Below are positions 48,397-53,095 of a DNA stretch of 64,000 nucleotides, piece after piece. Origin of the DNA: Acidobacteriota bacterium (GTDB lineage Bacteria > Acidobacteriota > Vicinamibacteria > Vicinamibacterales > UBA8438). The notes beneath the pieces were generated by a model. The model searched no databases and was not told where the DNA came from. It saw nothing but the letters and a program-made list of their open reading frames with translations. The position numbers and the translations under genes were made by a program. Numbering within the stretch: the stretch's first letter is position 1; each line of letters starts with the position of its first letter. The stretch lies in NCBI GenBank assembly GCA_021296515.1, contig JAGWAH010000004.1, forward strand, positions 1 to 64,000, in the 5' to 3' direction.

Positions 48397-48930
48397 ATGT
48401 CGCTCATCCCCGCCTGGGCGCCGAACCTGCATCCGCTGGTCGTGCACTTTCCGATCGCGCTGCTGTCTGCGGCAGGCGCCGTCGATCTGGCGGGCCTCCT
48501 GGCGCCGGATCGGAGACCGCTGCGGGACACGGCGACTTGGCTGTACGTCGGGGGCGCGGCAACCGCCGTGTTCACGTACTTCACGGGGTACACCGCGGCG
48601 CAGGCGGCAGCGTTCTCTCCGGAGGTCGGGTCGCTCGTGGACGCGCACGCCGACTGGGCGTTCACGGCGACGTGGCTCTTCGCGTTCTTCGCGTCGCTGC
48701 GGCTCGCGATGTCGTACATTCTCCGGCCGCGGCGGGCACTGCAGATCGGCGCCTTCGCGATTGCGCTGGCCGGACTCGGCGCGCTGGCGCAGACCACGCT
48801 GCTCGGGGCGCGGCTGGTCTTCGAGCAGGGACTCGGGGTGCAGGCGGTGGCCGTCGCGGAATCGGCGGAACGAATGGAAAGAACGCCGGCGCAGCCGGTG
48901 GAAAGAGCGGAAAGAGAGGATCCGGAATGA
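48397..48930 (+). CDS. DUF2231-like membrane protein
   Basis: A 177-residue protein with four predicted helices. It starts with NLHPLVVHFPIALLSAAGAVDL, the HP-x2-VHFPIAL motif typical of DUF2231, and has further His/Asp in DAHADWAF. DUF2231 proteins occur beside cytochromes and dehydrogenases and may take part in membrane electron transfer. The start at 48397 is used; in-frame codons from 48307 are not conserved in look. The stop overlaps the PQQ dehydrogenase ATG (ATGA), so the two are translated together. Confidence 0.78.
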   Translation: MSLIPAWAPNLHPLVVHFPIALLSAAGAVDLAGLLAPDRRPLRDTATWLYVGGAATAVFTYFTGYTAAQAAAFSPEVGSLVDAHADWAFTATWLFAFFASLRLAMSYILRPRRALQIGAFAIALAGLGALAQTTLLGARLVFEQGLGVQAVAVAESAERMERTPAQPVERAEREDPE

Positions 48931-51037
48931 GGTCGCTGCTGACTACTTCGTTCGTCGTGCTGGTTACGTCGTTCGTCACGGCGGCCGGGGCCGGCAACGC
49001 CTTTGCCCAGGAACAGACGTCGGAGGGGCCGTGGCAGACCTACGGCACCGAGAACGGCGAATGGCGCAGCTACGCCGGCGACAGCTCGACCAGATCGACG
49101 CCGGCAACTTCAGCGACCTGGAGATTGCCTGGGAGTGGACGTCGATCGACAACTTCGTCAGCCGCAGCACACCCGGCGGCGGCGAGTGGTCGGCCCCGCT
49201 CGACGTGATCGTCGATTCGCTGGTCGAGGAGACTCCGAACCTCTACCGCAGCAGCCAGCCGCCGAACCCGTCGCGCCTGCAGGTGACGCCGCTGATGATC
49301 GACGGCGTGCTCTACTTCAACACGCCGCTGTCGCAGGGGGTCGCGGTGGACGCGACGACCGGCGAGACGCTGTGGATCTTCAATCCGAAGAGCTACGAGG
49401 AGGGGACCCCGTCGATGAGCGGCCCCTGGACGCAGCGCGGCGTCGCCTACTGGACGGACGGCGCAGGGGACGAGCGCATCTTCTGGGGCACCGGCAACGG
49501 CTACGTGGTCTGCGTGCAGGCAAAGACCGGGCAACCCTGCCCCGACTTCGGCCCCGACGGCAGCGGCATGGTCGACGCGATGGTCGGCATCCCGCGCGTC
49601 GAGCGCGAGGCGCGCGATTACCTCAACGCCCTGCTCTACTCCATCAACTCGCCGCCGATCGTCGTGCGCGACAAGGTGATCCACGGCTCGCAGATCGCCG
49701 ACCGGCGCATCACGCGGGAAGCGCCTCCCGGCTGGGTCCGTGCCTGGGACGTCCGCACCGGCGAGCACGCCTGGGACTTCCACACCGTGCCCAACAGCGC
49801 CGACGAGTTCGGCGTCGACACCTGGCTGAACGATTCGTGGCGCTACTCCGGCAACGCCAACGTCTGGTCGATGCTGGCCGGCGACAACGAGCTGGGTTAC
49901 GTCTACCTGCCGACCGGCACCACCACGAACGACTACTACGGGGCCGACCGGCCGGGCGACAACCTCTTCTCGGAAACCATCATCGCCGTCGACGTGGAGA
50001 CGGGCCAGCGGATGTGGCACTTCCAGGCGGTGCACCACGGGCTGTGGGACTACGACTTCCCCACCCACCCGAACCTGGTCGACGTGGTGGTCGACGGGCG
50101 GCCCGTCAAGGCGCTGGTGCAGGTGAGCAAGCAGGCGTTCGTCTACGCCTTCGACCGGGTGACCGGGGAGCCGATCTGGCCCATCGAGGAGCGGCCGGTG
50201 CCGCAGGCGACGAACATGCCGGGCGAGGTCCCGTCGCCGACGCAGCCGTTCCCGACGAAGCCGGCCCCGTTCGACTACCAGGGGGTCACCATCGACGACC
50301 TGGTCGACTTCACGCCCGAGCTGCGCGAGATGGCCATCGAGGTCGTGAGCAACTACCAGATCGGACCGCTGTTCACGCCGCCCGGACGGCCCATCAACGG
50401 CGGCACGCAGGGCACGCTGATGCGCCCGCCGGACTTCGGCGCGGCCGGCTGGGCCGGCGCCGCGGTGGACCCCGAGACCGGGATGCTCTACATCCCGTCG
50501 CGCAACATCGCCGTCGCCATCCCGCTCTACACGCCCGACCCGGACCTCGGCGCCACCATGCTCTACACGCACGGCGCCCCCGAGGAGCGGCGGCTGCGCC
50601 AGATCCGGCAGGGCCAGTCCTACCAGGCGCGGATGCCGCAGGGACTGCCGCTTCTCAAGCCGCCCTACTCTCGGATTACCGCCATCGACATGAACACCGG
50701 CGAGCACGCCTGGATGGTGCCCCTCGGCAATGGGGACCGCATCCGCAACCACCCGCGGCTGCGCCACCTGAACCTGCCGCCCCTGGGCGACGGCACCATC
50801 GGGGGTCCGCTGCTGACGAAGACCCTGCTGATCAGCACCGTGCCGACCGCCGGCAGCCAGGGCGGGCCCGGTCTCGTGGCCTGGGACAAGCAGACGGGCG
50901 AGATTCGCGGCGCGGTCGACCTGCCCGCCGGCACCATCGGCACGCCGATGACCTACCTGGTCGACGGGCGGCAGTACATCGCGGTCAGCATCGGGGGCGG
51001 CCCGCGGGTCGTGGCCTTCGCGCTGCCGGCGGACTGA
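48927..51037 (+). pseudogene. PQQ-dependent dehydrogenase, frameshifted near its 5' end
   Basis: A periplasmic quinoprotein alcohol or sugar dehydrogenase with an eight-bladed propeller (about 700 residues). Signal peptide (LLTTSFVVLVTSFVTAAGAG...AFAQ), then WQTYGTENGEWRSYAGD in frame 1. At 49083-49085 the frame breaks; LDQIDAGNFSDLEIAWEW and the whole remaining enzyme continue in another frame to 51037. The missing segment (family S-T-K-Y-S-P) suggests a 22-base deletion. Blade motifs such as TGETLWIFNPKSY, WDYDFPTHPNLVDV, FGAAGWAGAAVDPETGMLY and GGPLLTKTLLI are intact. No adjacent disulfide Cys-Cys and no C-terminal haem are seen. The gene is broken as read, unless the deletion is an assembly error. 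Confidence 0.82.
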
Positions 51038-51056: not shown

Positions 51057-52736
51057 ATGAACGTCACCAGGCTGCGCCTCGAGAACTTCAAGCGCTTCAC
51101 CGACCTCACCATCGACCTGTCGTCGTGCGCCGGCGCACCGAAGCTGGTGCTGCTGATCGGGGCGAACGGCAGCGGCAAGTCGTCGGTGTTCGACGCGTTC
51201 GAGTATCTGTCCGCGCAGCACAAGGGCGATGCGGCGCCACCTTCGACGCGTTTTTCCGAGGCTTTCTCCGATGCGTTCTATAAGGGTGAGGCGTACGACA
51301 AGTTCTTGAGCTACCTCAAGAAGGACCCGGCCGCAGAGATGTCGGCGGCCTGCGCGTTCGGGGGAGGCTTCGAAGTCCGCCGGTCCAACGGCTCGAGCCC
51401 GACCACGTCACCGACCGGGTGGGACGTGAAGTCGGCGTTCTACGGCCGGAGCTCGTTGCGAACGGTCCCCGAGCTTCGCGCCACGCCCCAATCCGTGGAC
51501 GTGGGGGCCGACCCCGACCGCCCGCGGCGGTTCATCGAGTTCGACACGCGTTTCGATGCCGACGTCGCGCGGATCACGGAGGACCTGCTACGTGATTTTT
51601 GGGGTAAGGACTTCGCCTCCGACGCGATAAAGGCTCGCTTCGTCGAGCCCATCAACGACGCCCTCGCCAGAGTGTTCGGCAACGGTTCCGCCACGGCCCT
51701 GCGGTTGACGCAGATGATCCCGGCGTTGGGTAAGAGGCCCGCCGATATCCGCTTCCGGAAAGGGCAATCGGAGGTCCACTACGACCTGCTCAGCAGCGGC
51801 GAGAAGGAAGTGTTCAACATCCTCCTCAACCTGTTCACCCGCCGCGAGCACTTCCCGAACGCCATCTACTTCATCGACGAGCTCGACGTGCATCTGCGCA
51901 CGCGGCTTCAGCACGCGCTGATCCGGGAAGTGGTCGAGCACTGGATTCCGGACTACTCGCAGCTCTGGACGGCCAGCCACTCGCTCGGCTTCATCGAGTA
52001 CGCCAGCGACGCTGCGGATGCGGCCATCATCGACTTCGACGACCTCGACTTCGACCGCCCGCAGGTGCTGGCGCCGGCGCCGAAATCCCCCGCCATCTTC
52101 GACATCGCGGTGCCCAGGGACTCCGCGTTGAAGGTCTTCCCCAACCAGACGCTGGTCGTCTGCGAGAACCAGGACGCGCTGCTCTACAACGCGATCCAGC
52201 TCCCCGGCCTGTTGTTCGTCGGCGCCAGGGACAAGAACGCCGTCGGGCTGCAGATCAGGACGAACGACGAGTTCCGCGGCCTGATGGATCGCGACTTCCT
52301 CGGGTCGGACGAAATCGAGGAACTGCGCCGCGAGCAGCCGAACCTCTTCGTGCTCGGGTACTACTCCCTCGAGAGCTACGCCTACCATCCCCTGAACCTG
52401 GCGGAGGTGTCGCCGCCCGGATTCGACGAAACGGAATATCGGGGTCTGCTCCAGGCGCGCATGGTGGAAGTTCGTGACCGCCTGCTGATGAACCTGGAAC
52501 GGAGCCGCAACGGCTACGAGGTCCTCAAGACGCTTCCCAGGGAGACGAAGGCGCGTGCGATGGAGGAGATCGCGAAGGCGACGGCGTCCGACGATTTCGA
52601 GACCTTCTACCCGTTCCTCGACATGAAGAATCAGCGCCCCGGCGACTATCTGGGACCGTTCAACCTGCAGCGCCTCGATCTCGCCCGCACCGCCTGGATG
52701 CGGGACACCATCGCCGCCGTCCTCGGCGCCGCGTAG
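51057..52736 (+). CDS. ATPase fused to a TOPRIM/DUF4435-like domain (OLD/PARIS-like)
   Basis: A 559-residue single-chain protein. The N-terminal SMC/RecF-like ATPase has LRLENFKRFTDL, Walker A GANGSGKS at 35-42, a signature-like DLLSSGEKEVFNILLNLF near 245, Walker B AIYFIDELDVHL near 270 and WTASHSLGFIEYA. After residue 360 comes a domain with an acidic group LVVCENQDALLY (E370, D373), then GLMDRDFLG (D411, D413) and YYSLESYAYHPLNL, the pattern of DUF4435/TOPRIM nucleases. This resembles OLD nucleases or a fused PARIS AriA-AriB. It starts 19 bases after the dehydrogenase gene and is followed by toxin-antitoxin remnants. Confidence 0.75.
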   Translation: MNVTRLRLENFKRFTDLTIDLSSCAGAPKLVLLIGANGSGKSSVFDAFEYLSAQHKGDAAPPSTRFSEAFSDAFYKGEAYDKFLSYLKKDPAAEMSAACAFGGGFEVRRSNGSSPTTSPTGWDVKSAFYGRSSLRTVPELRATPQSVDVGADPDRPRRFIEFDTRFDADVARITEDLLRDFWGKDFASDAIKARFVEPINDALARVFGNGSATALRLTQMIPALGKRPADIRFRKGQSEVHYDLLSSGEKEVFNILLNLFTRREHFPNAIYFIDELDVHLRTRLQHALIREVVEHWIPDYSQLWTASHSLGFIEYASDAADAAIIDFDDLDFDRPQVLAPAPKSPAIFDIAVPRDSALKVFPNQTLVVCENQDALLYNAIQLPGLLFVGARDKNAVGLQIRTNDEFRGLMDRDFLGSDEIEELRREQPNLFVLGYYSLESYAYHPLNLAEVSPPGFDETEYRGLLQARMVEVRDRLLMNLERSRNGYEVLKTLPRETKARAMEEIAKATASDDFETFYPFLDMKNQRPGDYLGPFNLQRLDLARTAWMRDTIAAVLGAA

Positions 52737-52837: not shown

Positions 52838-53095
52838 ATGAAGCAGGAATACGATTTCAGCAGCGGGAAACGGGGCGCTCCCGTCGGCACGTCGCGGGGC
52901 AAAGACCCGGACCACTTCACCAACGACAGCGAGTACACCCGGGATCTGATTCGGCGCGATCGGGAGCGGAGCACCGCGTTCGAGGCGCTCCAGGCCGCTG
53001 TGCAGGAAGGTCTCGACAGCGGCCCGAGCGACAAGACGGTGCCGTCCATCATGAAAGAAGTCGAGGCACGGCTGCGCAGCGATGGGCGCCTATAG
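52838..53095 (+). CDS. ParD-like antitoxin
   Basis: An 85-residue protein with the helix SEYTRDLIRRDRERSTAFEALQ, close to the C-terminal toxin-binding helices of ParD/CopG-type antitoxins, followed by LDSGPSDKTVPSIMKEVEARL. The N-terminus (MKQEYDFSSGKRG) does not look like a full ribbon-helix-helix strand, so the DNA-binding part may be altered. It overlaps by 14 bases a short ParE-like fragment. The toxin being broken suggests that the pair is decaying. Confidence 0.7.
   Translation: MKQEYDFSSGKRGAPVGTSRGKDPDHFTNDSEYTRDLIRRDRERSTAFEALQAAVQEGLDSGPSDKTVPSIMKEVEARLRSDGRL

Follow-up and report, generated by a model that had tools for sequence, protein, structure and literature searches.

The window, which is the whole 64,000-nucleotide stretch of DNA analysed here, carries a gene whose single product couples an ABC-like ATPase to a C-terminal acidic domain, raising the question of whether this is a PARIS system in one chain, an OLD nuclease or something else. 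We consider it probable that the gene encodes a divergent single-chain PARIS protein (AriAB), a judgement that applies to the whole of our preferred explanation, mechanism included. Its support comes from the identity of the domains, the conserved catalytic residues, clade membership and selection on both domains. A single-gene AriAB fusion is in itself already known: Rousset et al. 2022 (PMC9122126), in describing PARIS for the first time, noted that it also occurs in this form, such fusions are mentioned again in PMC10568477 and PMC12409363, and PADLOC holds two AriAB fusion models (PDLC02981 and PDLC02982). The window gene is a divergent, ordinary example; a preliminary description of the locus spoke of a fused or novel variant, and of these the fusion is supported and the novelty is not.

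An intact reading frame with an AriA-type ATPase

The gene and its parts are as follows.
51057–52736, + strand: probable ariAB gene (single-chain, fused PARIS); open reading frame, best PADLOC model AriAB PDLC02981 (9e-18)
51057–52091, + strand: AriA/OLD-like ABC ATPase domain, residues 1–345; Pfam, motif scan, AF2
52092–52133, + strand: junction between ATPase and Toprim, approximately residues 346–359; AF2 pLDDT below 50 at 350–356, 16-sequence alignment
52134–52406, + strand: probable Toprim core of DUF4435/AriB type, residues 360–450; hhalign, PADLOC matches of relatives, AF2 topology
52407–52733, + strand: predicted helical C-terminal extension, residues 451–559; alignment, low-confidence model helices

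The frame runs from an ATG start through 559 codons to a TAG stop without internal stops, with exactly the coordinates and length first given for it. It is not a chance frame, since it has full-length relatives from end to end (88, 75, 73 and 64% identity) and low dN/dS values (see below). Close homologues, approximately 69–95% identical, come from Acidobacteriota/Vicinamibacterales MAGs, and a further one (L003, 62%) from one Immundisolibacterales MAG, which is gammaproteobacterial. A remoter relative (29% identity) lies on the Zymomonas mobilis plasmid pZMOB01, the sole plasmid found, and others are in viral contigs and in four other Acidobacteriota; a search of a phage collection for relatives found none.

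Residues 1–345 match Pfam AAA_15 (3.7e-13; 50.3 bits against a cut-off of 32.1) and AAA_21 (1.1e-12; 49.2 bits against a cut-off of 27), the families of AriA-type ABC ATPases, and the protein matches the PADLOC AriA model at 4.9e-16. By motif scan we find Walker A (GANGSGKS, 35–42), the signature (LSSGEK, 245–250), Walker B (YFIDE, 271–275) and an H-switch (SH, 307–308). The best PADLOC model is AriAB for relatives also (L003, 1e-21; L027, 1.8e-29), and in L027 the best AriAB stretch, residues 202–467, spans the ATPase into the Toprim. The ATPase is modelled by AF2 with a pLDDT of mostly 70–93. When the full model was compared by Foldseek with PDB and BFVD, the solved folds nearest to the ATPase were the PtuA proteins of Septu and retrons, followed by the SMC and Rad50 heads. 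This ranking is as expected for an OLD/PtuA/AriA-type ATPase; since the ATPase dominates it, it is uninformative on the Toprim.

A probable, divergent Toprim domain in the C-terminus

Scanned directly against Pfam, NCBIfam and PADLOC, the window protein and its C-terminus gave no match in the Toprim half. When the C-termini of 16 family members were scanned, nine matched PADLOC AriAB (best 9.5e-10), six AriB and two PF14491 DUF4435 (best 7.7e-4). A profile built from the C-termini of 16 relatives aligned to split and fused AriB/DUF4435 sequences with an hhalign probability of 98.5% (E 1.7e-15), the acidic residues falling in register, and a second comparison with a separately built AriB/DUF4435 reference set gave 97.2% (E 3e-11); none of 98 column-shuffled controls exceeded 0.7%, and the reversed profile reached 0.1%. 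For fusions Rousset et al. applied a combined profile. Judged by a DUF4435 domain above the Pfam cut-off in the same protein, the window C-terminus has no direct match, and the match is strong at the level of the family profile. Against single references the alignment was strong with L049, L050 and L046, and with L044, L045, L047 and L048 there was nothing, so the link to AriB runs via its less divergent members. By profile comparison only, then, we assign the C-terminus to the Toprim domains of AriB/DUF4435 type, which bears out the earlier view of an ABC-like ATPase and a DUF4435-like domain in one protein. When only the C-terminus is searched, Pfam and PADLOC overlook the Toprim in some AriAB proteins, and counts of these systems may therefore be too low.

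Four acidic residues, E370, D411, D413 and E439, are invariant in the 16-sequence alignment and supply the E, DxD, E pattern of Toprim catalytic residues. The middle motif reads D411-R-D413, and its distance of 28 residues to the final glutamate equals that in the split AriB of L050. The preliminary description had listed E370, D373, D411, D413 and a YSLESYAYHP segment: three of these residues are conserved across the fused family, but D373 is not (N in L003), and the segment exists, but its acidic residue E439, the fourth conserved one, had been overlooked. In some Zymomonas-type relatives (L030, L031 and L066) D-L-D replaces D-R-D, so that the middle position of this motif varies.

An AlphaFold model from 15 alignment rows predicts strand 365–369, helix 373–380, strand 385–389, helix 393–402, strand 408–410, helix 417–426, strand 430–432 and helix 438–442, placing E370 just past strand 1 and D411/D413 just past strand 3. 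This is the strand–helix order of a Toprim domain, predicted with moderate confidence (local values of approximately 54–74). The model supersedes an earlier 9-row AF2 model in which the C-terminus was mostly below 50 pLDDT. A sequence search of the PDB for an AriB chain with the C-terminal profiles returned none, or chance matches only.

Beyond the Toprim core, the helical extension is common only to the window subfamily, and within it an FYPFLDMK/RPGDYL block is kept in close relatives. Such an extension, together with the high divergence of the Toprim, would suit a fused AriAB with a nuclease that now acts on something else, be it a different tRNA, another RNA or DNA, and according to PMC12409363 the targets of AriB in the various PARIS systems are not known. 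The catalytic residues and their spacing are however retained, and we regard a moved target as rather unlikely.

Selection, gene loss and genomic setting

Pairwise dN/dS between intact copies (Nei–Gojobori; pairs with saturated dS were set aside or are rough) was approximately 0.12–0.41 for the ATPase part and 0.16–0.30 for the C-terminal part. Both ranges lie well below 1, so both domains are under purifying selection.

Immediately upstream is one further gene.
48899–51037, + strand: PQQ-dependent dehydrogenase (Pfam PQQ, 1.3e-175), its stop 19 bp upstream of ariAB

In the window's genus (G000, G001, G002 and G003) ariAB starts approximately 20 bp after the stop of this dehydrogenase. A comparison of flanks covered orthologous dehydrogenases from five further genomes in the family and found no ariAB behind them; broken copies stand behind PQQ dehydrogenase copies in two other genera (G018 and G021). 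The Vicinamibacterales genomes G001–G017 have some 20–36 PQQ-dependent dehydrogenase matches each. The broken ariAB genes of the two genera follow different PQQ copies, and recombination between paralogues might have carried ariAB along. In L002 and L003 ariAB stands alone in unrelated surroundings; for the L003 copy, the other phylum, the 62% identity and the unrelated neighbourhood point to horizontal transfer between phyla.

Remoter cousins occur in type I restriction loci, between hsdS and hsdR (L041) or behind hsdR (L042), which is where a gene guarding restriction would be expected. The Zymomonas plasmid cousin lies approximately 8 kb from hsdR. The window ariAB does not adjoin a restriction system, and a search for HSDR_N in the host assembly (3.3 Mb, 158 contigs, 88% complete) gave no match.

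Downstream of ariAB lie two remnants.
52838–53095, + strand: chimeric antitoxin open reading frame, 85 aa; comparison with sister L001, TIGR02606
53084–53203, + strand: putative start remnant of a ParE-like toxin, approximately 39 codons; read from the sequence, ParE identity by eye

Residues 1–22 of the 85-aa frame derive from BrnA and residues 27–85 from ParD (TIGR02606, 9.5e-9 over residues 27–67). In the sister locus L001 (L001:8056-9337) separate brnA, phd-like and parD genes stand in a row, with the brnA and parD halves approximately 970 bp apart. The frame is the scar of a deletion, of approximately 970 bp relative to L001, in a toxin–antitoxin cluster, and the ORF list holds no full toxin frame after it. 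The decaying toxin–antitoxin pair reported previously is therefore a real remnant but not a simple pair, being a BrnA/ParD chimera followed by the ParE-like fragment. The idea of a small defence patch finds little support, as ariAB stands by itself in most relatives and the toxin–antitoxin genes next to it are broken remnants.

At least four distinct truncations or frameshifts of ariAB were seen in close relatives, though assembly error is possible: L004 lacks residues ~175–231 and is frameshifted, L005/L012 lacks 353–443 and is frameshifted, L013 lacks ~60–105 and everything past 343, and L014/L022 retains only 1–39 and 301–347. This suggests that ariAB, as a defence gene that is costly to keep, is often lost. 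Together with the broken neighbours it could be taken to mean that the window gene is itself decaying, its function lost; but the window copy is intact and keeps all its motifs, and the intact copies have the low dN/dS values given above, making decay highly unlikely.

Placement among AriAB, AriA and OLD proteins

An ATPase tree of 38 proteins, including fused AriAB, split AriA and OLD, places the window protein in a clade of 18 proteins with 99/99 support, all of them fused AriAB. Other fused proteins (L046/L073 and L049) branch elsewhere, among split AriA. Since fused proteins occupy separate positions, fusion may have arisen more than once, although several long branches make this unsure. 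The root split, which sets the OLD proteins apart from the rest, has weak support (70/94).

Least probable of all is that the gene encodes a Class 1 OLD nuclease, an ATPase and an OLD-type Toprim in one chain degrading DNA: the gross architecture is the same, the gene stands alone, Class 1 OLDs are single genes (PMC10568477) and true OLD genes are present in the genomes of several relatives, but the C-terminal profile matches OLD Toprims at only 0.4–28% against 94–98.5% for AriB/DUF4435, PF20469 matches neither the protein nor, at E 1e-6, the genome that carries it, and the window ATPase falls outside the OLD group, albeit across that weak deep split.

How a tethered nuclease might be activated

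In split PARIS, as set out in PMC12409363 and PMC11455837, an AriA hexamer holds AriB, triggers such as Ocr bind AriA, and AriB forms dimers that cleave tRNA-Lys(UUU) by means of a two-metal Toprim site. The accepted scheme is that AriA releases AriB; 2025 work suggests that AriB is activated rather than simply released (PMC12409363). How AriAB fusions operate was raised as unclear in a 2023 review (PMC10568477), and among the PARIS papers searched we found none that characterises a fused AriAB, the work published in Nature in 2024 being covered by way of PMC12409363 and PMC11455837.

By analogy, we infer for the single-chain PARIS protein of the window an oligomer, a phage trigger and a tRNA target. 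Fused AriAB would oligomerise via its ATPase domains, with the Toprim domains held inactive. Binding of a phage protein to the ATPase part (PARIS of E. coli responds to anti-restriction proteins, Ocr among them) would bring about a conformational change that lets the tethered Toprim domains pair. Paired Toprims, with a metal site formed by E370, D411, D413 and E439, would cut host tRNA, leading to a translation stop and abortive infection.

Being tethered, the Toprim could not be freed by dissociation as in split PARIS, and it is only the fusion that suggests activation without release of the nuclease. Inspection of the junction at approximately 346–359 revealed neither a separable linker nor a second start. 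With so short a junction, and nothing to suggest that the two domains are expressed separately, the nuclease would have to become active in place or after proteolysis. Fused AriAB thus bears on whether PARIS is activated by release of AriB or in place, and the compact 559-residue fusion with its short junction offers a clean test case. We also put forward, as a reading less likely than not, that the window protein and its relatives form a separate single-chain PARIS subfamily, with a Toprim below the detection of domain libraries, activated in place within an oligomer and possibly acting on another RNA target.

Comparison with known systems

The nearest solved fold for the ATPase part is PtuA of Septu and retrons, yet PtuA partners a separate HNH protein, PtuB, whereas the window protein has a fused Toprim; we saw no PtuB homologue beside ariAB and reject membership of Septu. 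Gabija GajA was likewise rejected, as there is no adjacent UvrD-like GajB and the neighbours are the PQQ dehydrogenase, the toxin–antitoxin remnants and a DnaK-like gene. Class 1 OLD and GajA resemble the window protein in joining an ABC ATPase to a Toprim, but differ in their Toprim family (PF20469), their separate group in the ATPase tree and their DNA substrates; the missing PF20469 match and the low hhalign values led us to reject Class 1 OLD.

Two-gene PARIS (AriA and AriB of E. coli B185), whose structures are described in PMC11455837 and whose mechanism is described in PMC12409363, has a homologous ATPase and Toprim, and E370 of the window protein probably corresponds to the catalytic glutamate E26 of E. 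coli AriB, a position deduced from the conserved motif. Here, however, the system is one polypeptide and its nuclease is not releasable by dissociation. The closest likeness is to the AriAB fusions (PDLC02981/PDLC02982; PMC9122126), which share the order of an AriA-like ATPase followed by a DUF4435 Toprim and the same conserved acidic residues. From these the window protein differs in a C-terminus too divergent for a Pfam or PADLOC match on its own, in its shorter length (559 aa against model lengths of 570 and 694) and in the helical C-terminal extension that its subfamily alone possesses.
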